A stretch of DNA of 45,551 nucleotides, taken from NCBI GenBank assembly GCA_938030665.1, contig CALHHY010000018.1:1-45551 (forward strand), read 5' to 3'. Positions 6,148 through 24,452 of the stretch are shown piece by piece. A model generated the notes under the pieces. It made no database searches. It was not told the origin of the DNA and worked only from the letters and a program-made list of their open reading frames with translations. Positions within the stretch are counted from its first letter, which is position 1; each line of letters begins with the position of its first letter. This stretch comes from an uncultured Litoreibacter sp. GTDB taxonomy: Bacteria > Pseudomonadota > Alphaproteobacteria > Rhodobacterales > Rhodobacteraceae. A program made the translations under genes and the position numbers.

Positions 6148-6162
6148 TTTCTGCGCTGCAGC
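6148..6162 (+). promoter_or_regulatory. TTCTGCG-N2-GCAGC element upstream of mcl2-mch
   Basis: TTTCTGCGCTGCAGC lies 69 bases before the mcl2 start; its core CTGC-GCT-GCAG is an inverted repeat (6151-6161). The same TTCTGCG-N2-GCAGC string occurs upstream of ecm (21503-21513) and ccr (24439-24449), the other EMC pathway genes here. A weaker related string, GGCGCTTGCAGCG, follows at 6169. The 323-base stretch 5908-6230 holds no convincing gene; a 96-codon frame in it has atypical composition. Confidence 0.5.
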
Positions 6163-6230
6163 AGATCGGCGCTTGCAGCGATGGCTCTGCTGTGCTGGAT
6201 AACAAAATAACAAATTGAGGGACAATTCTT

Positions 6231-7079
6231 ATGCAACGTTACGCGAAGCCTTGCCGGTCCGTGCTCTATATTCCAGGCTCGAAGCCCCGCGCGCTTGACA
6301 AAGCACAGACCTTGCCGGTCGACGCGATCATCTTTGACCTTGAGGACGCCGTCTCTCCTGACGAGAAGGCGCCTGCGCGCGATACGCTGTCGGCGACACT
6401 CAACGGTTCTGATTTTGGTCCTCGGACCCGCCTCGTGCGGATCAACGGCTTTGACACGGCGTGGGGGGCAGATGATCTGGCGATGCTCAAGGACACAGCG
6501 CATGACGCCGTGCTGCTACCAAAAGTCGAAGATCCTGAAACCGTGGCCAAGGCCCGTTCCTCCCTGGGGCCGGACGCGAAAATCTGGGCAATGATGGAAA
6601 CCCCGAAAGGCATTTTGAACGCAGCCAACCTTGCCGCGCTGCCTGGCATGCAAGGGTTTGTGATGGGGACAAATGACCTGGCCAAGGAGCTGGGGTCGCG
6701 CACACGTGGGGCGATGCTGACGAGCCTTCAGCTTTGCCTGCTTGCGGCGCGCGCGGAGGGGCTCGTCTGCATCGACGGGGTTTACAACGCGTTCAAGGAC
6801 GAGGACGGGTTGCGCGCCGAATGTGAGGAGGGGCGCGACATGGGATTTGACGGCAAGACCCTGATCCATCCGGCGCAGGTGGGGGTGGCCAACGCGTTTT
6901 TCGGCCCTTCGCAGGAAGCGCTGTCGCTTGCCCGACGCCAGATCGACGCGTATGAGCAGGCGAAAGCCTCCGGCCAGGGGGTCGCGGTCGTGGATGGCCG
7001 GATCGTGGAAAACCTGCATGTTGAAACCGCAAATCGCCTTTTGGCGCAGGCGGAGGCGATTGCGCTATTGGAGGGCTGA
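6231..7079 (+). CDS. mcl2: (3S)-malyl-CoA thioesterase (HpcH/HpaI-like lyase family)
   Basis: A 282-residue TIM-barrel protein of the citrate-lyase-beta/HpcH family. RSVLYIPGSKPRALDKA starts the barrel. IIFDLEDAVSPDEK and METPKGILN carry the acidic metal-binding residues, and GTNDLAKELG is also conserved. Malyl-CoA lyases proper (Mcl1) are around 320 residues. The shorter length and the position beside mch favour the Mcl2 group, which hydrolyses (S)-malyl-CoA to malate and CoA in the last EMC step. A GAGGGA site lies 8 bases before the ATG. Assignment within the family (thioesterase versus citryl-CoA-lyase-like) is inference from size and context. Confidence 0.85.
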   Translation: MQRYAKPCRSVLYIPGSKPRALDKAQTLPVDAIIFDLEDAVSPDEKAPARDTLSATLNGSDFGPRTRLVRINGFDTAWGADDLAMLKDTAHDAVLLPKVEDPETVAKARSSLGPDAKIWAMMETPKGILNAANLAALPGMQGFVMGTNDLAKELGSRTRGAMLTSLQLCLLAARAEGLVCIDGVYNAFKDEDGLRAECEEGRDMGFDGKTLIHPAQVGVANAFFGPSQEALSLARRQIDAYEQAKASGQGVAVVDGRIVENLHVETANRLLAQAEAIALLEG

Positions 7080-7084
7080 CCCCG

Positions 7085-7654
7085 ATGACCGTTTTGATCT
7101 TAGGCGTGGTGCTTTGGGCCGTGGTCCATTTTTTCAAACGGCTCGCGCCAGCGTCCCGCGGGGCGATGACCGCGCGGATGGGTGAGGCCTCCAAAGGGGT
7201 GATCGCGCTGCTGCTGGTTCTCTCCGTCGTGTTGATGGTGCTGGGCTATCGCGCCGCTGACTTCACGTCCATCTGGAACCCGGCTGCGGGTATGACCCAT
7301 GCCAATAACCTGCTGATGCTGGTCGCGCTCTATATATATGGGGCAGGTGGGCCGAAGGGCAGCAAGGTCTGGCTGGGAACCAAGCTGCGCCACCCGCAAC
7401 TGGCCGGCTTCGCGCTTTGGGCCGTCGCGCATCTGCTGCCCAATGGCGATCTGGCTTCAATCTTGCTGTTTGGCGGGCTGCTGGTCTGGTCGCTTGCGCA
7501 GATGGCGTTGATCAACCGGGCGGAGGGGCCCTGGACGCCGCCTGCCCGTCGTCCGTTCAAATCCGAGGTCATTCTGGTGGTTATTACGCTGGTGCTCTAT
7601 GCGCTGATCGCGGCCGTCCACATGTGGCTCGGCAAAGTCCCATTCGGAGGTTAA
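7085..7654 (+). CDS. NnrU family membrane protein
   Basis: A 189-residue membrane protein with about five or six hydrophobic segments, matching the NnrU family in length and pattern (MTVLILGVVLWAVVHFFKRL, then NPAAGMTHANNLLMLVALYIYG and the cluster FALWAVAHLLPNGDLASILLFGGLLVWSL). The family name comes from a gene near denitrification loci, but no nitrogen-oxide gene is present here. It starts 5 bases after mcl2 and is followed after 4 bases by the next gene, so it belongs to the mcl2-mch operon. Its role there is unknown. Confidence 0.85.
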   Translation: MTVLILGVVLWAVVHFFKRLAPASRGAMTARMGEASKGVIALLLVLSVVLMVLGYRAADFTSIWNPAAGMTHANNLLMLVALYIYGAGGPKGSKVWLGTKLRHPQLAGFALWAVAHLLPNGDLASILLFGGLLVWSLAQMALINRAEGPWTPPARRPFKSEVILVVITLVLYALIAAVHMWLGKVPFGG

Positions 7655-7658
7655 CCCC

Positions 7659-7862
7659 ATGAAACTATACCGCTTCCTGAGCGAGGAGGACACATCCGCC
7701 TTCTGCCACAAGGTCACAGAGGCACTCAACAAAGGGTGGGAGCTTCACGGCTCCCCCACCCAGACCTGGGACCATGCGGCAGGTGTGATGCGCTGCGGGC
7801 AATCCGTCGTGAAAGAGGTCGAGGGCGCCTACACGCCCGCCACCAAGCTGGGCGCGCATTAA
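7659..7862 (+). CDS. DUF1737-containing small protein
   Basis: A 67-residue soluble protein. MKLYRFLSEEDTSAFCHKVTEALNKGWELHG matches the DUF1737 pattern, in which a short strand is followed by a helix and the conserved GWELHGSPT. It sits between nnrU and mch with gaps of 4 and 1 bases, so it is surely cotranscribed. The function of the family is unknown. It could be a small regulatory or assembly partner, but nothing in the sequence proves it. Confidence 0.85.
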   Translation: MKLYRFLSEEDTSAFCHKVTEALNKGWELHGSPTQTWDHAAGVMRCGQSVVKEVEGAYTPATKLGAH

Positions 7863-7863
7863 G

Positions 7864-8901
7864 ATGGGGACCAAGACCAATGCGGGCCGCTTCTTTGAAG
7901 ATTATGCTGTTGGCCAAGTCATCCATCACGGCGTGCCGCGTACCCTGTCGGGGGGCGAAAGGGCATTCTATCACGCGCTCTATCCCGCTCGCCACGCGCT
8001 CTATTCCTCTGACGCGTTCGCGCAGGGCTGCGGATTGCCTGCGGCACCCATGGATGACCTGATTGCATTTCACACGGTGTTTGGCAAAACGGTTCCTGAT
8101 GTCTCCCTCAATGCTGTGGCCAATCTGGGCTATGCGGAGGGGCGGTTCCTGAAGCCCGTGCACGCAGGCGACACGCTGGTCTCACGCTCCGAGGTGATAG
8201 GGGTCAAACAGAATTCCAACGGCAAGACCGGCGTTGTCTGGGTGCGCACGACGGGTGAGAACCAAAGGGGCGAGCCCGTCCTTTCCTATGTCCGGTGGGT
8301 GATGGTGCGCAAACGCGACCTCGATGCGCCTGCCCCTGACACTGTTGTACCGGAGCTTTCGGTAAGCGTGACGGTGGGTGATCTGGTGATCCCGCCGCGG
8401 TTGGATTTTAGCGACTACGACTTTGCCCAAGCCGGGGAAGCGCACCGGTTGGGGGACTATGCCATTGGCGAAAAGATCGATCATGTCGACGGCGTCACCA
8501 TTGAGGAGGCGGAGCATATGTTGGCTACCCGGCTGTGGCAGAACACGGCCAAGGTACATTTTGACGCGACGGTGCGCGAGGATGGCAAGCGGTTGATTTA
8601 TGGGGGGCATGTGATTTCCCTCGCGCGGGCGCTCAGCTTCAACGGGCTGGCAAATGCGCAGATGATTGTGGGCCTGAACGCGGGCGCGCATGCCAATCCG
8701 TGTTTCAGCGGCGATACCGTGAAGGCATGGTCGGAGGTGCTGGATGTGGCTGAGACAAATGCGCCGGGTGTGGGCGCCATACGGTTACGGCTGGTCGCGC
8801 GACGGGCTGGTGGTGACGCCTTTGCCTTGAAGGGTGCGGATGGCAGATACCTGCCGGATGTGCTGCTTGATCTCGATTACTGGGCGCTGATGCCTGTGTG
8901 A
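7864..8901 (+). CDS. mch: Mesaconyl-CoA hydratase (2-methylfumaryl-CoA hydratase)
   Basis: A 345-residue double hot-dog (MaoC-like) protein. FEDYAVGQVIHHGVPRTLSGGERAFYHALYP opens the N-terminal hot-dog, and the second hot-dog contains YGGHVISLARALSFNGLANA, the hydratase-type helix. Length and architecture match the Mch enzymes of the EMC pathway, which convert mesaconyl-CoA to beta-methylmalyl-CoA. The ATG lies 1 base after the DUF1737 stop. The operon link with mcl2 supports the assignment, because the two enzymes act on consecutive C5 and C4 acyl-CoA intermediates. Confidence 0.92.
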   Translation: MGTKTNAGRFFEDYAVGQVIHHGVPRTLSGGERAFYHALYPARHALYSSDAFAQGCGLPAAPMDDLIAFHTVFGKTVPDVSLNAVANLGYAEGRFLKPVHAGDTLVSRSEVIGVKQNSNGKTGVVWVRTTGENQRGEPVLSYVRWVMVRKRDLDAPAPDTVVPELSVSVTVGDLVIPPRLDFSDYDFAQAGEAHRLGDYAIGEKIDHVDGVTIEEAEHMLATRLWQNTAKVHFDATVREDGKRLIYGGHVISLARALSFNGLANAQMIVGLNAGAHANPCFSGDTVKAWSEVLDVAETNAPGVGAIRLRLVARRAGGDAFALKGADGRYLPDVLLDLDYWALMPV

Positions 8902-8951
8902 CGTTTTGACCTACACGTGCGGCTCCGCCGCGCGGGATGTTTTGCGCTCTT

Positions 8952-8968
8952 GGAGAGCTTCGCTCTCC
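8952..8968 (+). terminator. Hairpin downstream of mch
   Basis: A perfect 7-bp stem, GGAGAGC-TTC-GCTCTCC, lies 50 bases after the mch stop and is flanked by two copies of CCGCCGCGCGGG. There is no clean T-run, so it may act as a weak or factor-dependent terminator of the mcl2-mch operon. Confidence 0.4.
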
Positions 8969-9099
8969 GCCGCGCGGGCATCCTCTCAGAGTATTTTGAA
9001 GCAGTGATGACGCCTTGCAGCTGGGATTGATTTTCCCTGTTCTGGTCACGCCGCAAATTGTGACTGCGCAGGCGCGAAAAAACCGGCTAGGTTGCCGGG

Positions 9100-9795
9100 A
9101 TGCGATGGGTTTTTGGACTTTCAGTGGCGGCCTCAATCGGGCTTTCGGCGGACCGGGCAACAGCCTGCGACTTGGCATTGATCCTGGCTGTGGATGTGTC
9201 GGGGTCGGTGGATAATCAGGAGTATCAGATCCAGATGCAGGGTCTGGCCGAGGCACTGCGCGACGGGGCGATCTCAGAGGCGCTGGTGGTGCGGGAGGCG
9301 GCGGTGCAGGTCGTGCAATGGACAGGCACCGGGCGGCACCGGGTCTCAGTGCCCTGGACGCGGATCAAGGACTTTGACGATACGGACCGGCTGGCCGATG
9401 AGATCGAGAATGATCAACGTATTTGGCGCAATTTCTCCACCGCTTTGGGGGAGGCTGTGCGGTTTGCGCAGCGTTCCTTCGCCGAAGTGCCGGATTGCTT
9501 GCGGAGGGTGATTGATGTCTCTGGCGATGGTCGGTCCAACGAAGGGGTGCAGCCACCCACCCTGCATCGCTCGCTGATAGAGGACGGGATTGTGGTCAAT
9601 GGGCTTGCGATCGAGGCCTATGACAAGGGGTTGCTGAGCTATTTCCAGGACCATCTGATTGTGGGGCCGGGTGCCTTCGCGATGCGGGCGGCGGATTTTG
9701 AGGAGTACCCGGAGGCGATCCGAAACAAATTACTGCGTGAGATCACGCAGCAGGTCTCTTCGGTGGACCCAGCGCCTAAAAACAATCGTTTGTGA
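9100..9795 (+). CDS. DUF1194 / von Willebrand factor A-like exported protein
   Basis: A 231-residue protein with a signal peptide (MRWVFGLSVAASIGLSADRATA, cleaved before CDLALIL) and a VWA-type fold. ALILAVDVSGSVDNQEYQIQ carries the MIDAS DxSGS motif, and RRVIDVSGDGRSNEG resembles the later MIDAS region. This is the DUF1194 pattern, a periplasmic metal-dependent adhesion-like domain of unknown ligand. It stands alone between mch and sdhC. Its stop codon overlaps the operator at 9790-9822, so it is probably not part of the sdh transcript. Confidence 0.88.
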   Translation: MRWVFGLSVAASIGLSADRATACDLALILAVDVSGSVDNQEYQIQMQGLAEALRDGAISEALVVREAAVQVVQWTGTGRHRVSVPWTRIKDFDDTDRLADEIENDQRIWRNFSTALGEAVRFAQRSFAEVPDCLRRVIDVSGDGRSNEGVQPPTLHRSLIEDGIVVNGLAIEAYDKGLLSYFQDHLIVGPGAFAMRAADFEEYPEAIRNKLLREITQQVSSVDPAPKNNRL

Positions 9796-9822
9796 TCACG
9801 AGATAATTTACTGTGATCACAA
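9790..9822. promoter_or_regulatory. Double-palindrome operator upstream of sdhC
   Basis: TTGTGATCAC and its exact inverse GTGATCACAA are separated by 13 bases. The TGATCA centres are 21 bases apart, exactly as in the site before sucC (2223-2259). It lies 125 bases before the sdhC ATG and overlaps the stop codon of the preceding gene. The identical arms and phasing before two TCA operons argue for a common regulator of sucC and sdhCDAB. Confidence 0.72.
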
Positions 9823-9946
9823 TCTAGGGAATTCAATCGGATTGGTGACATATTTCCTGTCTATCCGCGCCACAACCGCGTGACTCTGCAACAGAATACT
9901 TTAGAAACGCAGGTGACATATCGTAGCCAACACGAAGGACGCGCTC

Positions 9947-10330
9947 ATGGCAGACGTCAACCGGGGAAACAGGCCGCTTTCTCCTCACCTCTCAATCTAT
10001 AGGCCACAGCTGACATCAATGACATCAATCCTGGTGCGCATCACCGGCAACGCCCTGCTAGTGGCGGCAATCCTGATTGTGTGGTGGTTTCTAGCGGCAA
10101 GCTACGGGCCGGAATATTTTTCCACGGCCGACGCGGTGCTGACCTCGTGGTTTGGCGATCTGATACTGTTTCTGTCGCTCTGGGCGGTATGGTATCATCT
10201 GTTTGGCGGCATTCGGCACCTGATCTGGGATAGCGGTCACGGATTCGAACTGGACGTGGCCGAAAAGATGGGCTGGGCGGTGATCGGCGGATCGCTTGTC
10301 ATGACCATCCTGACCGCAATCATCGTATAG
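9947..10330 (+). CDS. sdhC: Succinate dehydrogenase cytochrome b556 subunit
   Basis: A 127-residue membrane anchor of respiratory complex II, with three transmembrane helices. RPLSPHLSIYRPQLTSMTSILVRITGN is the SdhC signature near the quinone site, and HLFGGIRHLIWDSGHGF carries the heme-ligand histidine region. It begins the sdhC-sdhD-sdhA-sdhB operon, with 11 bases to sdhD. The operator at 9790-9822 lies upstream. Confidence 0.96.
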   Translation: MADVNRGNRPLSPHLSIYRPQLTSMTSILVRITGNALLVAAILIVWWFLAASYGPEYFSTADAVLTSWFGDLILFLSLWAVWYHLFGGIRHLIWDSGHGFELDVAEKMGWAVIGGSLVMTILTAIIV

Positions 10331-10341
10331 GGGCGCGCGAA

Positions 10342-10713
10342 ATGGCTTACATGACGGACCGCAAACGCGCCGCAGGGCTTGGGTCGGCAAAGTCGGGAAC
10401 CGCGCATCACTGGTCGATGATGATCAGCTCGGCCGGGCTGGCGGTGCTTATCCCGCTGTTTATCTTCACTTTCGGGCCGATCCTGGGGTCTTCCTACGAG
10501 GAGGTGATCGCCTATTTCGCCCGTCCTTTCCCGGCGATTGTCGCGGCCCTGACCATAGCTGCGTCAATGATGCACTTTAAAAGCGGTGTTCAGGTCCTGA
10601 TCGAGGACTATGTGCATGGGCTGGCGCGCAAGGTACTGATCATCGCGATGATCTGCCTGAGCTACGCCATCGCCGCCACCGGCATTTTCGCAATCGCGCG
10701 CATCGCCCTTTAA
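10342..10713 (+). CDS. sdhD: Succinate dehydrogenase hydrophobic membrane anchor subunit
   Basis: A 123-residue complex II anchor with three hydrophobic helices. GSAKSGTAHHWSMMISSAGLA is the N-terminal SdhD pattern, and MMHFKSGVQVLIEDYVHG carries the conserved histidines and the IEDYVHG motif that helps ligate heme b. An AGGGG site is 8 bases upstream of the ATG. sdhA follows after 15 bases. Confidence 0.95.
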   Translation: MAYMTDRKRAAGLGSAKSGTAHHWSMMISSAGLAVLIPLFIFTFGPILGSSYEEVIAYFARPFPAIVAALTIAASMMHFKSGVQVLIEDYVHGLARKVLIIAMICLSYAIAATGIFAIARIAL

Positions 10714-10728
10714 TTCGGAGCAAGAGAT

Positions 10729-12537
10729 ATGGCTGCTGAATACGATTATGAGACCCATGAATATGACGTCGTCGTGGTGGGTGCTGGCGGTGCTGGTCTG
10801 CGCGCTACGCTCGGCATGGCGGAGCAGGGGCTGCGCACGGCCTGCGTAACAAAGGTGTTCCCCACGCGCTCGCACACGGTTGCAGCGCAAGGCGGCATCG
10901 CGGCGAGCCTGGGCAATATGGGCCCCGACAGCTGGCAGTGGCATATGTATGACACGGTCAAGGGCTCTGACTGGTTGGGCGACACGGATGCGATGGAATA
11001 TCTCGCCCGCGAGGCGCCAAAGGCGGTCTACGAGCTGGAGCATTACGGCGTACCGTTCTCCCGCACCGAAGAGGGCAAAATTTACCAGCGCCCCTTTGGC
11101 GGTCATACGACCGAATATGGCGAAGGGCCGCCCGTGCAGCGCACCTGCGCCGCCGCCGACCGGACCGGCCACGCGATCCTGCATACGCTCTACGGCCAGT
11201 CGCTGAAGCAAAAGGCCGAGTTCTACATCGAATATTTCGCCATCGACCTGATCATGAGCGATGATGGCGTCTGCCAGGGCGTGCTTTGCTGGAAGCTCGA
11301 TGACGGCACATTGCACCTGTTCAGCGCCAAGATGGTGGTGCTGGCCACTGGCGGCTACGGTCGCGCCTATTTCAGCGCGACAAGCGCGCATACCTGCACC
11401 GGCGACGGTGGCGGGATGGTGGCGCGGGCGGGCCTGCCTTTGCAGGACATGGAGTTTGTGCAGTTTCACCCGACCGGCATTTACGGCGCGGGCTGCCTGA
11501 TCACCGAAGGCGCGCGGGGGGAAGGTGGTTACCTGACCAACTCGGAGGGCGAGCGGTTCATGGAACGCTATGCGCCGACCTATAAGGACCTGGCGTCCCG
11601 TGATGTGGTGTCGCGCTGCATGACGATGGAGATCCGCGAGGGCCGCGGCGTGGGCGAGAATGGCGACCATATTCACCTGCACCTCAACCACCTGCCACCC
11701 GAGACTTTGGCGCTGCGGTTGCCGGGCATTTCGGAAAGCGCACGCATCTTCGCGGGCGTCGACCTGACAAAGGAGCCGATCCCGGTGCTGCCGACGGTGC
11801 ACTATAATATGGGCGGCATTCCCACGAATTATTGGGGGGAGGTGCTAAGCCCCACCCAGGACGACCCCGACCGCGTCGCTCCGGGCCTGATGGCTGTGGG
11901 GGAGGCTGGGTGCGCTTCCGTTCATGGGGCCAACCGGCTTGGGTCTAACTCCCTCATTGACCTTGTGGTCTTTGGGCGCGCCGCTGCGATCCGTGCCGCG
12001 AAGGTGGTCGACCCCGAAGCGCCAAATCCTGGCATCAACAAGATGTCCATTCAGCGGGCGCTCGATCGCTTCGACGGGCTGCGTTACGCCAAAGGGCAGG
12101 TTCCCACGGCGGAGCTACGTCTTGAAATGCAGACCACGATGCAGCAGGACGCAGCCGTGTTCCGTACTGATAAGACGCTGGCCGAGGGTGTGGAGAAGAT
12201 GGACAATGTCGCCTCCAAACTGGACGACCTTGAAGTCTCCGACCGCAGCCTTGTGTGGAATTCCGACCTGATGGAAACGCTTGAGCTGGCTAACCTTATG
12301 CCAAATGCTGTGGCCACCGTGGTCAGCGCCGAGGCCCGTAAGGAAAGCCGGGGCGCACATGCGCATGAGGATTATCCCGACCGTGACGACAAGAACTGGC
12401 GCAAGCACTCACTGACCTGGTTCAAGGGCCATAAGGCGTCGCTCGGCTACCGCGGCGTGCATCTGGACCCGCTGACATCGCATAATGAGGGCGGGATTGA
12501 CCTGAAGAAGATCGCACCCAAAGCGCGGGTATATTGA
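10729..12537 (+). CDS. sdhA: Succinate dehydrogenase flavoprotein subunit
   Basis: A 602-residue catalytic subunit that oxidises succinate to fumarate with covalent FAD. The dinucleotide fold is [18 protein letters not shown]. The histidine in [16 protein letters not shown] is the expected site of covalent [25 protein letters not shown] and [10 protein letters not shown] are active-site signatures. The length equals the usual alphaproteobacterial SdhA. The TGA overlaps the ATG of a lipoprotein gene by one base (TGATG), so the operon continues without a break. Confidence 0.97.
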
Positions 12538-12806
12538 TGAAAAAGACCTTTCTCTTCATAGCACTACTGGCGGCTGGGTGTTCGAAACCGCCAGTTTTTT
12601 CAGCCGAAGAGGGTAAATTGGTCGCTCAGCGCTGTATCGAACAAACCGGGGCGCCGGGCGTATACTCGATCCAGCCGGGACGTGTGTCCGCCAGCAATAG
12701 CGACGACAACCTCCCGCGTGCGCGGGCAGTCGTGCGTTTGGGGGGCACCAAGGCGGGCGCTGCGCAGATCAACAGCTGTATTCAGCGGAAAGCGGCGGCG
12801 GTCTGA
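12537..12806 (+). CDS. Small lipoprotein 1 of the sdh operon
   Basis: An 89-residue protein: [15 protein letters not shown] is a textbook lipoprotein signal (acylated Cys 15). The mature domain has exactly two more cysteines, C33 in QRCIEQ and C81 in NSCIQRK, 48 residues apart. The same spacing is found in the next lipoprotein, suggesting related disulfide-closed domains. Its ATG overlaps the sdhA stop. The role is unknown; location between sdhA and sdhB suggests expression with complex II, perhaps as an envelope factor. A 6-bp GGCGAG/CTCGCC hairpin with a T6 loop follows at 12810-12835. Confidence 0.75.
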   Translation: MKKTFLFIALLAAGCSKPPVFSAEEGKLVAQRCIEQTGAPGVYSIQPGRVSASNSDDNLPRARAVVRLGGTKAGAAQINSCIQRKAAAV

Positions 12807-12855
12807 TTTGGCGAGTTTTTTGCACATATCTCGCCTGAGCCATCGACCTGCGTTG

Positions 12856-13155
12856 ATGCGTCTAGGCCTTCTTGGCCTCGCTCTGACCGTCGCGGCTTGC
12901 GCCCCCGTGCCCATGACGCCCGAGCGGGCAGAGCGGTTGTGCCGTGAAGACGCAGGCCTGGCGGATGGGGTACAAGGCCGCGTGGGTGTCGGCATCGGCA
13001 CTGGCGGCGGGCGCGCAAAAGGGTCAATTACTGTGACGGACCGCGTGTTCAACCCGCAATCCGAAGAAGACTTCCTGCGGGACTGCATCGACCGCCGGCT
13101 TGCGGGGGAACCTCAGCCCACCACATTCGGCATCACAGTGGGAGCCAGCACATGA
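12856..13155 (+). CDS. Small lipoprotein 2 of the sdh operon
   Basis: A 99-residue protein: MRLGLLGLALTVAAC is the lipoprotein signal (Cys 15). The mature part has two cysteines, C29 in RLCRED and C77 in RDCIDRR, again 48 residues apart, between which lies a glycine-rich strand region (GVGIGTGGGRAKGSITV). The C-terminal C-I-x-R-basic motif is shared with the preceding lipoprotein, so the two are probably distant paralogues. No good ribosome site precedes the ATG; a TTG just before it is in the same frame. Its TGA overlaps the next ATG by four bases. Confidence 0.7.
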   Translation: MRLGLLGLALTVAACAPVPMTPERAERLCREDAGLADGVQGRVGVGIGTGGGRAKGSITVTDRVFNPQSEEDFLRDCIDRRLAGEPQPTTFGITVGAST

Positions 13156-13469
13156 AATATGCAGCATTGCTTGCCGGCTTGATGGTCTTGGCGTCTTGCG
13201 GCGATGACGGGCTGGCCGACCAGCTTGCCCGTGATCAGGCGCGCAAAGCGGTAAACCCGGTCTTGTCCGAGCGGTTTCCCGGCGTGCCGCTGGAGCCTGC
13301 CAGCAATTGCGTCATCAACAACGCCTCGGCTTCCGAAATTTTCCAGCTCGCAAAGGCGGGCGCCACCACCGTGTCGCAAACTGATGTGGAGCTGATCGTG
13401 CAGATCGCCACGCGGCGCGAGACGATTGAATGTTTGCTCAAGGACGGCATCGCGCCGTTTCTGATCTAG
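13152..13469 (+). CDS. Small lipoprotein 3 of the sdh operon
   Basis: A 105-residue protein with signal MKYAALLAGLMVLASC (acylated Cys 16), then GDDGLADQLARDQARKAVNPVLSE, predicted helical. Two mature cysteines, C53 in SNCVIN and C94 in IECLLK, are 41 residues apart. The spacing and composition differ from the two preceding lipoproteins, so it is probably another family. The ATG overlaps the previous stop (ATGA), and sdhB follows after 9 bases, so translation is likely coupled through the whole block. I recognise no characterised homologue. Confidence 0.75.
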   Translation: MKYAALLAGLMVLASCGDDGLADQLARDQARKAVNPVLSERFPGVPLEPASNCVINNASASEIFQLAKAGATTVSQTDVELIVQIATRRETIECLLKDGIAPFLI

Positions 13470-13478
13470 GAGAGACCT

Positions 13479-14258: not shown

Positions 14259-14297
14259 GTTGAACGTTCAAATGCCGGACAAGCCGCCGTTTTTGAG

Positions 14298-14335
14298 GTG
14301 CAGCGGCTGCTTTTGAGACCAAGCAGCCGCTGCAC
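14298..14335. terminator. 15-bp perfect hairpin between sdhB and a convergent lipoprotein gene
   Basis: GTGCAGCGGCTGCTT and AAGCAGCCGCTGCAC form a perfect 15-bp stem with an 8-base loop. It lies 39 bases past the sdhB stop and 19 bases past the stop of the convergent gene at 14355. Neither strand has a proper T-run after the stem, so it may work as a bidirectional or processing hairpin rather than a classical intrinsic terminator. Confidence 0.6.
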
Positions 14336-14354
14336 GGGTGTCGGAAAATCAAGC

Positions 14355-16660: not shown

Positions 16661-16672
16661 CCGACGCGCCTC

Positions 16673-17377
16673 CTAGCTGAAAGCGGCTTCCAGCGCGATT
16701 TCGACCATATCGCCAAAGCTCTTTTCCCGATCCTCTGAGGGCAGCGCTTCGCCGGTTTGCAGATGGTCTGACACGGTCAGGACCGCCAGCGCACGACGAC
16801 CATGGCGGGCTGCGAGGTTGTACAGCTCGGCCGCCTCCATCTCCACGGCGAGGATGCCGTGACGGGTCATCTGCTCGTTCAGATCGGGCCGCTCGTCATA
16901 GAACACGTCAGCTGAATAGATGCCGCCCACGTGGGTGGTAGCGCCTTTTCGGATCGCGGCCTTGTGCGCGGCCTCCAGCAGCGACCAATCGGCGCAGGGG
17001 GCAAAGTTCAGCTCCTTGAATATGCCGCTTGATGGTGTGGACAGCGTAGAGGAGGTCATCGCCAGGATCACATCCCGGATACCCACATTAGCCTGCATCC
17101 CCCCGCAGGAGCCGATACGGATCAAAGTCTTGGCGTCATAGTCGCGGATCAGCTCATTGACGTAAATCGACAGGCTTGGCATCCCCATGCCGGACCCATG
17201 GATCGTGACCCGGTTGCCCTGCCACATGCCGGTAAAGCCCAGCATGCCGCGCACTTCGTTGATCATTTTCACATCGGTCAAAAATGTCTCCGCCGCCCAT
17301 TTTGCGCGATAGGGATCGCCGGGCAAGAGAACGGTTTCGGCAATCTCTCCCGGTTTTGCGCCGATATGAATTGTCAT
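16673..17377 (-). CDS. deoD: DeoD-type purine-nucleoside phosphorylase
   Basis: A 234-residue enzyme that phosphorolyses purine (deoxy)nucleosides to base and (deoxy)ribose-1-phosphate. [14 protein letters not shown] carries phosphate-binding residues. [24 protein letters not shown] and [12 protein letters not shown] (catalytic Asp in SDH) are hexameric DeoD motifs. It converges on the DUF1989 gene and lies 44 bases downstream of the desaturase gene. The BMP-type importer at 32201-37233 may deliver nucleosides, but the two are far apart. Confidence 0.95.
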
Positions 17378-17421
17378 TGGGGGCTCCTGATTTTGCCTGG
17401 GTCTGGTCCAGCAGTGGCGAG

Positions 17422-18525
17422 TTATTCTGCGGGCTGCAACCCTTGCGCGCAGGCCCGACGCATTGCGCGTTCATCCGCGAAGGATATCATCTGCCGGCTG
17501 TCCTCATCCCAAAGCTGCATCCAGATACATTTGACGGAGGAGCGTAGCGTCATCTTGTAGGCCCCGCTCAGCAGCGGCTCGTTTTGCAGCACCTCAGGCA
17601 GCCGGTAGAAGGGGATGCGCGCATAAAGGTGGTGCACATGATGGATGCCCATATTCGCCGTCACCCACATCAGCGGTTTGGGCAGCACATATTGAGACGA
17701 AGAATGAAGCGCTTTCTGGTGGATGGTCCAGTCGGGCTGCCAATCGAATTGCGCCTCTTCAAACTGGTGCTGCACGTAGAAGGTCCACACCCCGGCGCTG
17801 GCACCTACCCAGACGGAGGGGAACCAGATCAGCCAAATCGCGGCCCAGCCCCCGTAAGCATAAAGCGCGGCCAATACACCGGTGATGGCCAGATTGGTCC
17901 CCATGGCCGAGCGCCAATATATCCAGCCTCTCTTCCACATCCCGAAAGGCAACCGGTGCTGAATGAAAAACAGCCAGACGGGGCCAATGACGAACAGGAA
18001 GAACGGGTTGCGGTAAATCTGATAGGCAACCCGGTGCCAGCCGGGCAGGGCGCGGTATTCGCGCACGGTAAAGGTATGCACCTCGCCGATGTCGCGGTCA
18101 TCCAGATTGCCGAGATTCTTGTGATGGTTGGCGTGCATCTTCCGCCACATATAATAAGGCGTCAGGGTTACGACCCCCAGAATACGGCCGAAACGGTCAT
18201 TGGCACGCGCCGATTTGAACAGAGCGCCATGGCCTACATCATGTTGCAGCAGGAACATGCGAATGGTGAAAACGCCGGTGACGAGTCCAAGGAACAGCGC
18301 CAGCGGGTAGCTGATGGTCAATGCCCAAAGGGCCACCATCCAGCTGAGGGTGAAGGGGATGACGGTCTGTGCGATCTCCCACCAGGTGCGGGCCGGGATC
18401 GGGTCCTTGTACTTTTTCAGCCGGCGCGCCAAAGCACGCGCGTCCTCGGCGCTGATATAGGCATAATCCGACTGTTTTCCGGCCGAAGGGCCGTCAGGCA
18501 ATGCGGGGCGTGGTGTCGGTTTCAT
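17422..18525 (-). CDS. Membrane fatty-acid desaturase
   Basis: A 367-residue di-iron membrane enzyme that inserts a double bond into acyl chains. All three histidine boxes are present: HDVGH, HANHH and HHVHH, with hydrophobic segments between the first two and the third. The order and spacing resemble delta-12/omega-6-type bacterial desaturases, but regiospecificity cannot be read from sequence. I prefer the ATG at 18525 ([12 protein letters not shown]); a GTG at 18564 adds 13 residues but has no ribosome site. Confidence 0.88.
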
Positions 18526-18877
18526 TCTCGGTCTCAAATAGGCCGGAACGTCGGCAAATGTCACAAAACAAACGGTGGGGAAAGCTCCCTAGACGCCCAG
18601 TTTATTCAGCCAATTTGCTGGTTGCAATGGCTACGCGTCGCGCTTTTTGGTGCGGTGGCTCTGAACGCCTTAGCTGTCTGGCCATGTAAAGTAACTGCCA
18701 CTTCTGCGTCTCGATTTATAGCACAGCATTAACCATGTCTAAATTTGACCTCCGAAAGATCACAATAAGCCATTGTATTAGGATATATTTTTTGGGAGAG
18801 CTTGTATTTGATCACGAGCGCGTGTCTAAGTGTTACTAGGGGGCATAGTTTTGGCAATCTGCGAGAGGTTGGGCCTG
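18526..18877. other. Divergent promoter region, no gene seen
   Basis: These 352 bases separate the divergent desaturase and rhodanese genes. AT-rich sequence near 18770-18800 (TATTAGGATATATTTTTTGG) could hold a promoter for the rhodanese gene, and a single TTGATCAC half-site stands at 18807. No convincing ORF, repeat or RNA was found. Confidence 0.4.
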
Positions 18878-19450
18878 GTGTCTTTCCGTTACTTTCTACT
18901 GATCCTATTTGCGGCCGGCGGGTTTGCGGGCCTGGCATTTGCTGGGGCTATGGGCGGCATCATTTCGTTGGGCGGAATTCCGGAGCGTAAGCAGACGCAA
19001 AGCTCCTACTACCTCACATCCGAACAGGTGCACGATATTTTGCAGGACGACCCGTCTATTCTGTTTATTGACGTGCGCACATACGAGGAAGTCGAAGCCA
19101 GCGGGCATCCGCATCCGGTCGATGCGATCGTGCCCTATCAGGTGCAATCAGAAATCTGGGACAGCGACCTGCAGGAATTTACTCTGGTTGAAAACGCGGC
19201 TTTCGTGACCAAAATACGCGCCCTTCTGAATGAGGCCGGTCGCAGCCAATATGACATGATTATTATTACCTGCGGGTCCGGGGTGCGCTCGGCCGCCGCA
19301 GCTAGAATGCTGGAAGACAGCGGTTTTAACAATGTGTGGCATATCCCTGACGGGTATGACGGCGACGACAAGCCTGGCCTGAATATCCAGAACGCCTGGA
19401 AAAACAAGGGCTTGCCATGGTCTGGCGACGTGTCAGCGGTCTTCTTCTAA
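18878..19450 (+). CDS. Membrane-anchored rhodanese-like protein
   Basis: About 190 residues. A hydrophobic N-terminus (MSFRYFLLILFAAGGFAGLAFAG) is followed by a rhodanese domain: ILFIDVRTYEEVEASGHPH, then the active-site loop IITCGSGVRSAAAARML with the catalytic Cys, and HIPDGYDGDDKPG. The domain should face the periplasm. The start is uncertain: GTG 18878 has GAGG 9 bases upstream, TTG 18851 has GGGGG 7 bases upstream, and GTG 18830 has none. It converges on ecm, 4 bases apart. The sulfur donor is unknown. Confidence 0.8.
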   Translation: MSFRYFLLILFAAGGFAGLAFAGAMGGIISLGGIPERKQTQSSYYLTSEQVHDILQDDPSILFIDVRTYEEVEASGHPHPVDAIVPYQVQSEIWDSDLQEFTLVENAAFVTKIRALLNEAGRSQYDMIIITCGSGVRSAAAARMLEDSGFNNVWHIPDGYDGDDKPGLNIQNAWKNKGLPWSGDVSAVFF

Positions 19451-19454
19451 AGCG

Positions 19455-21422
19455 CTATTCCGCAGCGATCCCTTGCGGGTCCACAAGCGTGACCAGATCA
19501 TCCATAATCCGGTTCAGCTCGAAATCCTTTGGGGTATAGACCTTGCTCACGCCCATGGCACGCAGGCGGTTGGCGTCCTCCTCCGGGATGATGCCGCCCA
19601 CCACGACTGGGATATGACCTAGGCCCGCCACATTCATCTTTGCCATCAGGTCGCGGATCAGCGGGATGTGGGAGCCGGACAAGATCGACAGCCCCACCAC
19701 ATGCGCCTGATCTTTCCGCGCGGCCTCGACGATCTCGTCCGGGGTCAGGCGGATGCCCTCATAGGTGATATCCATCCCGCAATCACGGGCGCGGGCGGCG
19801 ATCTGCTCTGCTCCGTTGGAATGCCCGTCCAGCCCCGGTTTGCCGACCAGGAATTTCAGCCGACGGCCCAGCTTGTCTGACACAGCATCGACGCGGCCCC
19901 TTATGTCTTCCAGCCCTTCCGTGCGGTTGGACGGGTTGCGCGACACGCCGGTCGGGCCCCGATATTGGCCGAAGGCCTGGCGCACCATGTCGCCCCATTC
20001 GCCCGTCGTGGCCCCTGCTTTTGCCGCCGCGATGGAGGCAGGCATGATGTTGCTGCCCGATTGCGCGGCGTTGCGCAGGTCTGCCAGTGCTTTGTCGACC
20101 GCCGTCTGGTCGCGGGCCTCCCTCCACGCGGCCAGACGGGCGATCTGGTCTGCCTCCGCATCGGCGTCAGCTACCATAATGGCCTCGTCGCCTGCGGTCA
20201 GCGGGCTTTCCTCATGCTGCTGGTACTTGTTCACGCCGACCACGACGGTGTCGCCGGCCTCGATTCCGGTGATCCGGTTGGCGTTGGATTCGACCAGCCG
20301 CGACTTCATGTATTCAATCGCCTCGTTCGCCCCGCCCATGGCGTCGATGGTCGCAAGCTCTGCCCGAGCACCGTCTTTCAGCGCCTCTACTTTGCGATCC
20401 ACCGCCGGGTTGCCGTCAAACAGGTCTTCATATTCCAGCAAATCCGTCTCGAAAGCCATGATCTGCTGCATCCTGAGCGACCATTGCTGGTCCCACGGCC
20501 GCGGCAGGCCGAGCGCTTCGTTCCAGGCGGGCAGCTGCACGGCGCGGGCGCGGGCGCGTTTGGAAAGGGTCACGGCCAGCATCTCGATCAGGATGCGGTA
20601 GACGTTGTTCTCAGGCTGCTGCTCCGTCAATCCGAGGGAGTTCACCTGAACCCCGTAGCGGAAGCGGCGGAATTTCGGGTCTTCGACTCCGTAGCGTTCC
20701 CGGCAAATCTCGTCCCAGAGGTCCACAAAGGCGCGCATTTTGCACATCTCAGTGACGAAGCGGATCCCGGCATTCACAAAGAAGGAGATACGGCCCACCA
20801 TGGCCGGAAAATGCTCCGCCGGGACTTTGCCCTTCAGGTCATCCAGTACCGCGGTGGCCGTGGCCAGGGCAAAGGCCAGCTCTTGCTCCGGCGTCGCGCC
20901 AGCCTCCTGGAGGTGGTAGGAACACACATTCATCGGGTTCCATTTCGGCAGATGCTCCCGCGTGTAGGCGGCGACGTCGGTGATCATCCGAAGTGAGGGG
21001 TGCGGCGGGCAGATATAGGTGCCGCGCGACAGGTATTCTTTGATGATGTCGTTCTGCACAGTGCCCTGCAGTGCTGTGATATCCGCACCCTGTTCTTCCG
21101 CCACGGCAATATAAAGCGCCAGCAGCCAGGGCGCCGTCGCGTTGATCGTCATCGATGTGTTCATGTGATCCAGTGGGATCTCGTCAAACAGGGTCCGCAT
21201 ATCACCCAGATGCGCGACGGGCACGCCGACCTTGCCAACCTCGCCCCGCGCCAGCTCATGGTCGCTGTCATAGCCGGTTTGTGTGGGCAGATCGAACGCC
21301 ACGGAAAGACCCGTCTGCCCCTTCGCAAGGTTCCCCTTGTAAAGCGCGTTGGAGGCGCGGGCGGTGGAATGGCCGGCATAGGTCCGAAACAGCCAGGGGC
21401 GGTCTTTTGGTGTCTCGGTCAT
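19455..21422 (-). CDS. ecm: Ethylmalonyl-CoA mutase (coenzyme B12-dependent)
   Basis: A 655-residue acyl-CoA mutase. The substrate barrel opens with DRPWLFRTYAGHSTARASNALY and contains GLSVAFDLPTQTGYDSD. The C-terminal cobalamin domain has the DxHxxG motif as DGHSNG (residues 532-537) and PVVVGGIIPEED. A single chain combining barrel and B12 domain of this length fits Ecm (formerly MeaA) rather than methylmalonyl-CoA mutase large subunits of about 710 residues. It converts ethylmalonyl-CoA to methylsuccinyl-CoA. ccr lies 3 kb away, and a shared motif precedes both genes. Confidence 0.92.
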   Translation of the reverse strand: MTETPKDRPWLFRTYAGHSTARASNALYKGNLAKGQTGLSVAFDLPTQTGYDSDHELARGEVGKVGVPVAHLGDMRTLFDEIPLDHMNTSMTINATAPWLLALYIAVAEEQGADITALQGTVQNDIIKEYLSRGTYICPPHPSLRMITDVAAYTREHLPKWNPMNVCSYHLQEAGATPEQELAFALATATAVLDDLKGKVPAEHFPAMVGRISFFVNAGIRFVTEMCKMRAFVDLWDEICRERYGVEDPKFRRFRYGVQVNSLGLTEQQPENNVYRILIEMLAVTLSKRARARAVQLPAWNEALGLPRPWDQQWSLRMQQIMAFETDLLEYEDLFDGNPAVDRKVEALKDGARAELATIDAMGGANEAIEYMKSRLVESNANRITGIEAGDTVVVGVNKYQQHEESPLTAGDEAIMVADADAEADQIARLAAWREARDQTAVDKALADLRNAAQSGSNIMPASIAAAKAGATTGEWGDMVRQAFGQYRGPTGVSRNPSNRTEGLEDIRGRVDAVSDKLGRRLKFLVGKPGLDGHSNGAEQIAARARDCGMDITYEGIRLTPDEIVEAARKDQAHVVGLSILSGSHIPLIRDLMAKMNVAGLGHIPVVVGGIIPEEDANRLRAMGVSKVYTPKDFELNRIMDDLVTLVDPQGIAAE

Positions 21423-21468
21423 GGCACTCTCCCGTGAATCGGTTCGGTAACTTTATTGCGTAGATGTT

Positions 21469-21513
21469 TAAATACGGGGAATATTATGCCAATGTCAATT
21501 CGCTGCGTCGCAG
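21469..21513 (-). promoter_or_regulatory. ecm promoter with adjacent TTCTGCG-N2-GCAGC element
   Basis: On the minus strand a consensus -35 TTGACA (21498-21493), an 18-base spacer and TATTTA (21474-21469) lie 47 bases upstream of the ecm ATG. Directly upstream of the -35 is TTTCTGCGACGCAGC; its core CTGC-GAC-GCAG is a palindrome at 21503-21513. A site touching the -35 is a typical activator position. The same element is upstream of mcl2 and ccr. Confidence 0.55.
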
Positions 21514-21537
21514 AAATTCAAGGGTGACAACACTGGG

Positions 21538-22473
21538 TCAGTCCAGCAACGCGGCCTCACCCAGGATGAGGTCTGCATCCGGGTCGCTGATCTCTTCCAG
21601 CTCGGCCAGCACCGCCTCCTGCGCGGATTGCGCCTGTCCGGCCACGGTACCCAATGTACGGCGGGCAATGTCGGCAACATCAGTGTCCAAATCATCGCGC
21701 CAGACAACGTAGGCGGGGTAGGGGAACCGCGGCGCGTCGGGGACCAGATGCAGGCGCCCCGCCTCAAGATACTGCTTGATATACCGCGCCGGCAGATAGG
21801 CCGCGTAGTGGCGCGTGACAATGAATTCTGCAGCCATCGCACCGAGGGAGAAGGTTAAACCGGGATTCGTCAGCTCCGGCAGTGCCATGGCATGGGCCTG
21901 CACAAATTCAGGACCCCAATCGACAAAAACATACCGTCCAGCCAGATCCAGCGTGGGGTCCGGCCATGAAGCCGCCAGCACGAGTGTGTCATCGCTGACC
22001 TGCGACACGCTCAACCCCGCGCGCAGCTGCGGGGTGTAGAGCAGCGCGGCCTGCACGATGCCTTCGACCAGAAACCGGGTAAGGCGGTCGGGCATCCCCA
22101 GCTCTGTCCGCAGGTTCAGGGTCGGGCTTTCGGCGCGCAGCGCATCAATCCAGCGAAATCCCAGTCGTGGCCAGAGAGAGTATTGCGCGCCAATGGTCAG
22201 GCTCTTGGTAAACCCCTCTGGGATAGCCACCTGCTGCCGCGCTTCTTCCCATAGTTTCAGCAAGCCAAGGGCATAACGCTCGAACTCCGCGCCCGCTGGT
22301 GTCAGTTCTGCCCCAGCTTTGGACCGGGTGAAGAGGGGACGGCCCAGACTGTCCTCCAACCGTTGCACCCTTAGGGAGACGGCAGATTGGGTAACAAACA
22401 AACGATCCGATGCGGCGACGAAGGAACCGCTAGCAGAGACTTCAAGAAATGTGCGGATCAGGGCAATGTCCAT
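21538..22473 (-). CDS. LysR-family transcriptional regulator (HdfR-like)
   Basis: A 311-residue regulator. The winged helix-turn-helix is at residues 1-60 (MDIALIRTFLEVSASGSFVAASDRL, then TQSAVSLRVQRLEDSLGRPLF), followed by a two-lobe effector domain from about residue 90. The start at 22473 gives the canonical LysR N-terminus; a longer frame to 22551 adds an unlikely leader. It lies directly upstream of ecm on the same strand, with the 115-base ecm promoter between, and divergently from the small lipoprotein at 22600. It could control ecm, but the motif there is not a clear T-N11-A LysR box. Confidence 0.88.
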   Translation of the reverse strand: MDIALIRTFLEVSASGSFVAASDRLFVTQSAVSLRVQRLEDSLGRPLFTRSKAGAELTPAGAEFERYALGLLKLWEEARQQVAIPEGFTKSLTIGAQYSLWPRLGFRWIDALRAESPTLNLRTELGMPDRLTRFLVEGIVQAALLYTPQLRAGLSVSQVSDDTLVLAASWPDPTLDLAGRYVFVDWGPEFVQAHAMALPELTNPGLTFSLGAMAAEFIVTRHYAAYLPARYIKQYLEAGRLHLVPDAPRFPYPAYVVWRDDLDTDVADIARRTLGTVAGQAQSAQEAVLAELEEISDPDADLILGEAALLD

Positions 22474-22599
22474 TCTGAATATATAAGCAATACTCGCTCT
22501 AAAGGCAATTATTATTCGTTTTTCTTGTTTGATGCGGGTGGCTATATCCACTTGCAGACATCAAGCGGATGTCCAACCGAGTTACGAAGGAATGTGATA

Positions 22600-22797
22600 A
22601 TGATGACCAAGAAAAACACCGCGATCGCCGCCCTCCTGGGTGCCGTTCTGGCCCTGTCTGCCTGTTCTACGAACCAGGTCGTGGACACCACGGTCGATGC
22701 GTCGGGCTTCGTCGTCAAAACGGCTGCCAAAGGCGCCGTGGGCGCCGGCAAGCTGGCGTTCAAAGGGGCCAAGAAAGTCGCAGGCGCCGGTCAGTAA
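22600..22797 (+). CDS. Entericidin-sized small lipoprotein
   Basis: A 65-residue lipoprotein with lipobox LSAC (MMTKKNTAIAALLGAVLALSAC). The mature peptide is only about 44 residues and has the repeated amphipathic pattern GFVVKTAAKGAVGAGKLAFKG followed by AKKVAGAG. Size and composition resemble entericidin-like lipoproteins, though the sequence is not clearly homologous. Two adjacent ATGs (22600 and 22603) are possible; the first has AAGGA 8 bases upstream. A GC-rich stem-loop follows. Confidence 0.65.
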   Translation: MMTKKNTAIAALLGAVLALSACSTNQVVDTTVDASGFVVKTAAKGAVGAGKLAFKGAKKVAGAGQ

Positions 22798-22817
22798 CCT
22801 CCATTCCATCACGCAAG

Positions 22818-22938
22818 ATGCCTGGCGCAGCCGTCTGGTTGCGCCGGGACCACTCGCTCCGCCCCGGTGTGCGTCGTCCCGCGCGCCGGGGTTGGGGGGG
22901 CGACGGGCGCGGGGCGGGGACAAGAATGCGCCAGGCAT
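22818..22938. repeat. Long GC-rich inverted repeat
   Basis: ATGCCTGGCGCA (22818-22829) and its exact inverse TGCGCCAGGCAT (22927-22938) enclose 97 bases. The interior has further complementary blocks (TCCGCCCCG with CGGGGCGG, and CGTCG with CGACG), so the region can fold into one extended imperfect hairpin. It fills the gap between the small lipoprotein and the acyltransferase gene. It could be a structured RNA, a terminator or a REP-like element. Confidence 0.5.
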
Positions 22939-22972
22939 TTACCCCGCCTCAATTCCCTGCCACTCTGCCTCT

Positions 22973-24340
22973 ATGTTTCAAACCGTTGAGCTGCCCATCT
23001 GGGCGTTGATCCTGATGGGCCTTCTGGCCGCGGTGACCGCTGCCTCTCACCTGCTTTTCCCGTCCGTCCGCTGGTTCTTTCGCCGCCGGGCGGAGCGTGT
23101 CGTGGCGCGCCTCAACACTCGGCTGAAACGCCCGATCCAGCCCTTCAAGCTGGCGCAGCGGCACGACATGATCCAGGACGTCCTTTATGACCCGGACGTG
23201 ATCCGCGCGGTCAACGACTATGCACAGAAACAGGGCATCCCCGACAATGTAGCTTTTGAAACGGCACAAAGATATGCGCGCGAGATCGTCCCCTCCTTCA
23301 GCGCGACGATCTATTTCGGCTGGGGCACGCGTCTGGCCAAGTGGCTGTCGCGCGGGCTGTACCGGGTGCGGGTGGTCGGCCAAAACCACGACCTGATCGA
23401 GGGGATCGATCCAGAAGCCACAGTCGTCTACATAATCAACCACCGTTCCAACATGGATTATGTGCTGGTCACCTATCTGGCCGCTGGCGACACATCGCTG
23501 TCTTATGCGGTTGGGGAATGGGCGCGGGGCTGGCCGCTCAGGCCGTTGATCAAGATGATGGGCGGCTATTTCATCCGGCGCAAATCGCTCAACCCGCTTT
23601 ATCGCCGCGTGCTCGCCCGTTACGTGCAGCTATCCACGCGCGAGGGGGTGGCGCAGGCCGTTTTCCCAGAGGGCGGGCTGTCGCGCACCGGCGCTTTGGG
23701 CGATCCGAAACTGGGGCTGATCAGCTACATCATAGACGGGTTCAACCCCGAGACCTCCCGCGATGTGGTCTTCGTTCCCATCGGGCTGAACTATGACCGC
23801 GTGTTGGAGGACCGTGTGCTGGTCGCTGCCGCAGGCGACCGTCGCACGCAGTTCAAATTTCGCATGATCACCGTGTTTCGCTATGTCGGCCGTCACATCT
23901 GGCAACGGTTGACGGGCAAGTTCCACCGGCTGGGTTTCGCTGCCGTGGCCTATGGCACGCCGCTGTCGCTGCGTGAATTTCTCAGCAGTGCGCGCGACGA
24001 CGTGGCTGAGGACCTGGGGGCCGAGGTTATGGCGCGGGTCGCAAAATCTGTGCCCGTGCTGCCCGTGCCGATCATAGCCACCCATTTGCAAGAGGCGGGT
24101 GGCGTCTTGGCGCGAACCACGTTGGAAGAGCGTTTCGAGGCCGAGGTTACTCGACTGCAGAACCAGCAGGTCAATGTCTGCCTGCCGCCATCCGGCCCCA
24201 GAAAGGGCTTCGACGCGGCGTTGCGTCTGCTGGAGGCGCGGGGGATGGTTGCCCAGGAAGCGGGGCAGGTGCGTCTGACCGGCAAGTTTGATGATTTGAT
24301 CCCCTACTACGCGAAATCGGTGGCTCAATTTCTAATCTGA
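22973..24340 (+). CDS. Glycerol-3-phosphate / lysophosphatidate-type acyltransferase
   Basis: A 455-residue membrane-associated acyltransferase of the PlsB/PlsC superfamily. A hydrophobic N-terminal segment (PIWALILMGLLAAVTAASHLLF) precedes the catalytic domain. Motif I is NHRSNMDYV around residues 156-164 (catalytic His and Asp), and FPEGGLSRTG around 230 is the FPEG block. It would acylate glycerol-3-phosphate or a lysophospholipid in membrane lipid synthesis; which of these is not decidable. The ATG at 22973 follows the inverted repeat. ccr starts 134 bases downstream. Confidence 0.85.
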   Translation: MFQTVELPIWALILMGLLAAVTAASHLLFPSVRWFFRRRAERVVARLNTRLKRPIQPFKLAQRHDMIQDVLYDPDVIRAVNDYAQKQGIPDNVAFETAQRYAREIVPSFSATIYFGWGTRLAKWLSRGLYRVRVVGQNHDLIEGIDPEATVVYIINHRSNMDYVLVTYLAAGDTSLSYAVGEWARGWPLRPLIKMMGGYFIRRKSLNPLYRRVLARYVQLSTREGVAQAVFPEGGLSRTGALGDPKLGLISYIIDGFNPETSRDVVFVPIGLNYDRVLEDRVLVAAAGDRRTQFKFRMITVFRYVGRHIWQRLTGKFHRLGFAAVAYGTPLSLREFLSSARDDVAEDLGAEVMARVAKSVPVLPVPIIATHLQEAGGVLARTTLEERFEAEVTRLQNQQVNVCLPPSGPRKGFDAALRLLEARGMVAQEAGQVRLTGKFDDLIPYYAKSVAQFLI

Positions 24341-24420
24341 TTCTAGCACGACATAAAATTACAAAAACGAACTGTTTCTGGTTGTAATATTGCTTTGACC
24401 TTTGTAGATCGTCTTTATTG

Positions 24421-24452
24421 GCGACGCAGCATTTGATTCTGCGAGGCAGCAT
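24421..24452 (+). promoter_or_regulatory. Direct repeat GCGA(C/G)GCAGCAT upstream of ccr
   Basis: GCGACGCAGCAT (24421-24432) and GCGAGGCAGCAT (24441-24452) are two 12-base copies with one mismatch, exactly 20 bases apart. The second lies in TTCTGCGAGGCAGC, the same element as upstream of ecm and mcl2. The pair ends 21 bases before the ccr ATG. A possible -35 (TTGACC, about 24395) lies upstream, so here the sites would cover the transcription start, a repressor-like placement. Confidence 0.5.

Follow-up and report, generated by a model that had tools for sequence, protein, structure and literature searches.

Predicted PhaR operators before three ethylmalonyl-CoA pathway transcripts of an uncultured Litoreibacter sp. 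and their distribution in Alphaproteobacteria

The ethylmalonyl-CoA pathway is the acetate assimilation route of many marine, phototrophic and methylotrophic Alphaproteobacteria. Several of its genes lie on contig CALHHY010000018.1 of an uncultured Litoreibacter sp. (Rhodobacteraceae; assembly GCA_938030665.1), from which a stretch of 45,551 nucleotides, called the window below, was analysed. Three transcripts of the pathway, headed by mcl2, ecm and ccr, are preceded there by the same short element, TTCTGCGNNGCAGC, which is predicted here to be an operator of PhaR, a regulator that reads polyhydroxybutyrate (PHB). The genes and sites concerned are listed first, scores of sites being those of a matrix trained on ccr and ecm sites.

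6149-6163, plus strand: predicted PhaR operator before the mcl2-nnrU-mch operon, TTCTGCGCTGCAGCA (exact match; 19.6 bits)
6231-7079, plus strand: mcl2, HpcH/HpaI family (Pfam PF03328; named from its position beside mch and a table in PMC10370305)
7085-7654, plus strand: nnrU-like gene within the mcl2-mch operon (Pfam PF07298)
7864-8901, plus strand: mch, mesaconyl-CoA hydratase (Pfam PF19315)
19455-21422, minus strand: ecm, ethylmalonyl-CoA mutase (Pfam PF01642 and PF02310; homologue in 75 of the 80 fetched ccr loci)
21493-21498, minus strand: -35-like hexamer TTGACA of ecm (from the sequence)
21501-21515, minus strand: predicted PhaR operator before ecm, TTCTGCGACGCAGCG (exact match; 22.1 bits)
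24382-24410, plus strand: promoter-like TTGTAA-N17-TAGATC of ccr (from the sequence)
24437-24451, plus strand: predicted PhaR operator in the ccr leader, TTCTGCGAGGCAGCA (exact match; 15.9 bits; fits CTGCN3GCAG)
24474-25766, plus strand: ccr, crotonyl-CoA carboxylase/reductase (NCBIfam TIGR01751, scoring 613 bits, cut-off 379)

The name of ecm rests on context, since NCBIfam yielded only methylmalonyl-CoA mutase, below the full-length cut-off. The mcl2 product is a malyl-CoA thioesterase in the gene table of Paracoccus denitrificans (PMC10370305), and the order mcl2-nnrU-mch was found in 30 out of 30 loci, the window counted.

When both strands of the window were searched, exactly three matches to the element were found, at 6149-6162 (+), 21502-21515 (-) and 24437-24450 (+), which end 68, 79 and 23 bases from the start codons of mcl2, ecm and ccr, respectively. 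An initial annotation of this DNA had proposed a shared element before these three transcripts, within about 100 bases of the start codons; the element proved real, with exact matches nowhere else in the window, and all three places were correct apart from the start at ccr, which was off by one. The consensus -35 said to abut the ecm copy was also recovered, as the TTGACA listed above. All three sites contain the palindrome CTGC-N3-GCAG; the stricter core YGCRNYGCR was displayed by the ecm and mcl2 sites, the ccr site being one base off. With two mismatches allowed, the window contained 12 matches for a shuffle mean of 9.4 (19 of 100 shuffles reached 12); this is an ordinary count, so that within the window only exact matches carry information. 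Throughout the window's own assembly (G000; 3.19 Mb, 82 % complete), the pattern occurred six times and a reversed control not at all. Three of the six matches were the promoters described here, and the remaining three fell within or at the edge of long open reading frames.

Relatives were represented by 80 named ccr loci, mostly from Rhodobacteraceae genera, in which the core YGCRNYGCR was sought up to 160 bases upstream. It was found before ccr in 79 of the 80 loci (the only miss being locus L114) and before ecm in 72 of 75, compared with 270 of 2000 random 160-base windows of the same loci and 76 of 1550 shuffled upstream regions. Conservation at orthologous promoters, on which the proposal of a shared element hinged, was thus encountered at ccr, ecm and mcl2 of relatives; for mcl2, 19 of 20 fetched regions gave a match to the gene. 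The exact 12-base pattern was too strict as a family-wide probe, many relatives carrying GCGG for GCAG.

The sites also kept a consistent position relative to predicted promoters. The ccr promoter of relatives consisted of a TTGCAA-like box and a TA-box, with a spacer between them that measured 17 bases in 66 of 80 loci; this two-box pattern was not found in 11 of the 80, and the core lay 22-29 bases after the TA-box in 61 of the 80. At ecm, the nine-base core ended exactly five bases before TTGAC in 59 out of 75 loci; at mcl2, the next TTGNN stood 10 bases past the operator in 13 out of 19. According to this layout the ccr site would belong to the predicted leader, and those of ecm and mcl2 would directly precede a -35-like box. 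Two full cores about 20 bases apart were present before ccr in L038, L045 and L098, and L037 displayed only the upstream one.

The element resembles known PhaR operators. PhaR of Rhodobacter sphaeroides binds CTGCNNNGCAG, and the consensus of Sinorhizobium meliloti PhaR has the core YGCRNYGCR (both from excerpts of PMC12542648). PhaR is encoded in the window's genome at G000:C1:14900-15082 (PF07879, PF05233; TIGR01848 at 151.6 bits, cut-off 109.5). A phasin-like gene and phaC (TIGR01838) are found nearby; the promoter of the former has two cores around it, and a further core precedes phaR. The matrix was built from 60 sites sampled from the 79 ccr and 72 ecm core-bearing loci, weak or duplicate sites being removed, and its training included no phaP, mcl2, mcl1 or other pha site. 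At a threshold of at least 15 bits it recognised phaP in 22 of 22 loci with a phasin match, mcl2 in 17 of 19 and mcl1 in five of 30, and other upstream regions of the 80 loci in only five of 724 cases (two of 361 in a mostly intergenic subset). The values for ccr (77 of 80) and ecm (71 of 75) were partly reached by construction, as these sites formed the training set. Homologues of the phasin-like gene had Phasin_2 as best match in 10 of 10 tested cases, three of which exceeded the cut-off.

The site and its presumed regulator were also missing together. phaR (PF07879) was found in 144 of 149 family genomes, and the phaR-less genomes with ccr were G003, G033, G090, G136, G149 and G214. Summed over the samples, the core was present at ccr in 125 of 133 phaR-positive genomes and in none of the six phaR-less ones, where it was missing or broken (Fisher 3e-7, for hand-summed counts whose named and unnamed sets may overlap in species and are not independent by descent). 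Among the 80 named loci, phaR status was checked for 59. The genome of L114 (G149), picked for its missing ccr core before its phaR status was known, had no phaR; the same search was positive in eight other named genomes and again negative in G003. Another 50 named genomes, each carrying the core at ccr, were all positive for phaR. A family sample of 48 ccr upstream regions (49 loci, G003 occurring twice) was drawn from the 136 family genomes with ccr; the core was present in 41 of 44 phaR-positive and none of four phaR-less genomes, the three phaR-positive misses being the window's own genome, G057 and G146. G003, a single contig that is 100 % complete, lacked phaR and kept only the left half of the ccr site, and an intact site was not found at its ccr, ecm, mcl2 or mcl1. 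PhaR is therefore indicated by three lines of evidence: the sequence of the element, its occurrence before phaP and phaR, and its lack at ccr where the genome is devoid of phaR.

The class as a whole was sampled through 32 of the 33 other class genomes with a Ccr match (the partial match of G208 was left out), start positions being guessed by script. The core was present at ccr in 26 of the 32 and phaR in 31; 26 of the 31 phaR-positive genomes carried the core, and the phaR-less G214 did not. Thirty-one of the 32 belonged to families other than that of the window, and in 25 of these the core stood no more than about 200 bases upstream of ccr, compared with 110 of 1600 shuffled controls. There it often took the form of palindromes resembling TTTTGCATTGCAAAA, the type known from S. 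meliloti. This presence outside the family suggests that the link between PhaR sites and ccr probably predates the Rhodobacteraceae.

Further features of the window lie close to the predicted operators or resemble them.

21447-21459, minus strand: box 2, GCAA-N5-TTAC, located past the ecm promoter and ahead of the ecm start (conserved in relatives)
21538-22551, minus strand: LysR-type gene between ecm and plsB (Pfam PF00126 and PF03466), outside the conserved system
24384-24393, plus strand: box 2-like GTAATATTGC inside the ccr promoter-like stretch (from the sequence)
24420-24430, plus strand: degenerate upstream partner of the ccr operator, GGCGACGCAGC (from the sequence)
32150-32164, minus strand: fourth candidate operator, palindrome CTGCGCCGCAG, before a TauE/SafE-family gene at 31166-32083, minus strand (20.7 bits)

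Box 2, of general form G-N-AA-N5-TT-R-C, was present in 67 of 75 ecm and 23 of 30 mcl1 regions (24 of 2000 random windows), and a form with a two-base spacer in 40 of 80 ccr regions (14 of 2000); it was not found before mcl2 of the window. G003 had it intact before both ccr and ecm; L114 kept it before ecm and, with a five-base spacer, before ccr. Since box 2 persists in these two phaR-less genomes, it is probably bound by another protein, and what was lost there is specifically the neighbouring PhaR site. The TauE/SafE-family gene was encountered in 41 of the 80 ccr loci, 14 of which, including L037, scored at least 10 bits upstream of it.

A related but less uniform situation was met at mcl1. 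In the window's genome (L214 1503-1517, G000:C59) its site abuts TTGAAC, as at ecm. A form with a four-base spacer, CTGC-N4-GCA or its mirror, was found in 17 of 30 mcl1 loci (controls: nine of 900 shuffles of mcl1 regions and 112 of 2000 random windows), and one or the other spacing in 21 of 30; the loci with neither were that of the phaR-less G003 and eight others. A PhaR-like site with the same four-base spacer, CTGCGGATGCAC, also occurs in the glyoxylate promoter of P. denitrificans (oligo 46, PMC10370305), between two RamB boxes.

Several observations weigh against the assignment to PhaR. The phaR-less genomes were few; G033 is only 74 % complete, and G090 and G136 have only a distant Ccr (52 %). 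Conversely, the ccr core was absent despite phaR in G057 and G146, whose PhaR is 37 % identical to that of the window's genome, and in five of the 31 phaR-positive class genomes; so it was at mcl2 of the phaR-positive G011 and at ecm in the phaR-positive genomes of L049 and L079. The window's own ccr site deviates from the strict core, as mentioned above. At mcl1, the three-base-spacer core was present in only nine of 30 loci, the window's genome included, and the upstream regions of phaR itself displayed it in only 27 of 39. The phaP sample comprised 22 of these 39 phaR loci, those with a phasin match in the flanks, and the 17 left out included all with a divergent PhaR. The phasin-like gene of the window's genome is itself a sub-threshold match to Phasin_2 (17.9 bits for a cut-off of 24.9). 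When the matrix was scanned over this genome, 150 of 4834 candidates being scored and 40 places listed, ecm, the two phaP sites and mcl2 ranked within the top eight places and mcl1 nineteenth; the window's ccr site and the phaR site were absent from the 40. E-values were weak (best 0.13), so that the scan yields only a candidate list, and 17 of 25 inspected places fell inside some open reading frame of at least 70 amino acids, which makes the matrix not specific by itself. Finally, in the study of the S. meliloti PhaR homologue AniA, the words 'ethylmalonyl' and 'crotonyl' are absent from the main text and the target table, as displayed, names no ccr (PMC12542648).

Some of these exceptions, namely the phaR-positive Alphaproteobacteria devoid of a core at ccr, would also be expected if the element were bound by another regulator, for instance one of the TetR type such as CcrR, and merely looked like a PhaR site; CcrR controls ccr in Methylobacterium. 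This alternative is improbable, because a matrix trained on ccr and ecm fits phaP promoters in all 22 cases and the ccr core is missing where phaR is missing. The LysR protein encoded between ecm and plsB, which the initial annotation had offered as the regulator, is far less likely still. Its gene adjoins ecm, with its stop codon 22 bases from the ecm site, but a homologue was found in none of the 80 ccr loci (tblastn, 1e-15, flanks of up to 10 kb) while 79 of them kept the core, and the region upstream of the LysR gene itself has no site (-9.3 bits). One regulator common to the pathway genes is nevertheless well supported, so that this part of the earlier proposal stands without its neighbouring LysR candidate. 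The LysR gene is probably a lineage-specific insertion. An RNA leader hairpin (CUGC-N3-GCRG) acting after the start of transcription seems just as remote: the ccr element does lie in the predicted leader and the frequent change of GCAG to GCGG would retain U-G pairing, but the ecm, mcl2 and phaP elements lie upstream of or around a -35-like box and are therefore probably outside the transcript. Chance in GC-rich DNA, to which the ordinary two-mismatch count in the window would lend itself, is refuted with near certainty by conservation and controls (core in 79 of 80 loci against 270 of 2000 random windows; matrix at phaP in 22 of 22 against five of 724).

RamB/ScfR was also considered as a binder of the element and rejected, its boxes being different (oligos of PMC10370305); TTTGCAAA has a single occurrence in the window, at 43656.

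Conserved sites that are identical to the operators of phaP and absent together with phaR thus make it very probable that the element is a PhaR operator tying the ethylmalonyl-CoA promoters to the level of PHB. That PhaR binds there, that PHB titrates it at these promoters, where the promoters lie and which sign the control has are inferred. The protein, whose gene stands next to phaC and phaP in another part of the genome, would bind CTGC-N3-GCAG before all three transcripts. As long as little PHB is available, it would occupy these sites and hold ccr down; as the ccr site is located just downstream of the predicted -10 box, PhaR bound in the leader would block RNA polymerase. Once acetyl-CoA overflows into PHB, granules would take up PhaR, and the pathway would open together with the phasins. 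The latter behaviour is described for phasin genes, which PhaR represses when PHB is absent and from which it is drawn by granules (excerpts of PMC12542648). At ecm and mcl2, where the sites lie just upstream of a -35-like box, PhaR could either repress or activate; a PhaR both repressing and activating is announced by the title of PMC12849132.

The first two steps, through acetoacetyl-CoA and 3-hydroxybutyryl-CoA, are common to PHB synthesis and the ethylmalonyl-CoA pathway (excerpts of PMC13357446), so that a PHB-reading regulator on ccr would represent a simple branch-point control. Deletion of phaC1 in R. sphaeroides impairs growth on acetate (excerpts of PMC13357446), and a phaC1 phaR deletion strain gives a higher hydrogen yield on acetate (excerpts of PMC13063691); both fit PhaR control of the pathway. 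If real, PhaR acting on ccr, the next committed gene, would offer a reason for the poor growth of phaC mutants on acetate, and its control would provide an engineering handle for PHB, hydrogen and methylotroph strains. A broader proposal, made tentatively because it is rather more likely to fail than to hold, is that throughout Alphaproteobacteria acetyl-CoA assimilation might be turned on mainly by PHB, via PhaR. The granule would then act as sensor and the sign would depend on the promoter, with PhaR blocking ccr from the leader and possibly helping ecm and mcl2; the four-base-spacer form might extend the control to mcl1 and also to the stretch separating the RamB boxes of the glyoxylate operon in P. 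denitrificans.

The operator type itself is known. The sites share their palindrome with the PhaR operators at phaP and phaR of Rhodobacteraceae, phaR is in the same genome and phaP scores like the pathway sites. For PhaR of R. sphaeroides and P. denitrificans, the targets named in the excerpts consulted are phasin genes and phaR, whereas the sites described here are located on ccr, ecm and mcl2-nnrU-mch. The AniA regulon of S. meliloti is alike in its core YGCRNYGCR and in PHB titration, and its targets in central carbon metabolism include gltA, ppdK and zwf (excerpts of PMC12542648). RamB/ScfR of the P. denitrificans glyoxylate cycle likewise regulates acetyl-CoA assimilation in the family and differs by two boxes 18 bases apart and by another target (PMC10370305). 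The mechanism upregulating the ethylmalonyl-CoA pathway in P. denitrificans was still called enigmatic in 2023 (PMC10370305). What appears to be new is the place of predicted PhaR sites on ccr, ecm and mcl2 and their reach at ccr across the class. In open-licence PubMed Central, no title or abstract opening was found that reports PhaR sites at ccr, ecm or mcl2. A study by Shimizu in 2022 on R. sphaeroides (doi 10.1128/aem.00507-22) reportedly deals, by its title, with PhaR in acetate metabolism and may already report part of the PhaR effect on the pathway.

Other candidates from the scan of the window's genome were L199 (G000:C100:8695), L205 (G000:C12:8378) and L208 (G000:C91:9923), near RNase E/G family, mercaptopyruvate sulfurtransferase and AlgH-like genes. 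Just downstream of ccr, positions 26137-27610 (+) of the window carry a luxR-type regulator gene followed by an autoinducer synthase gene.

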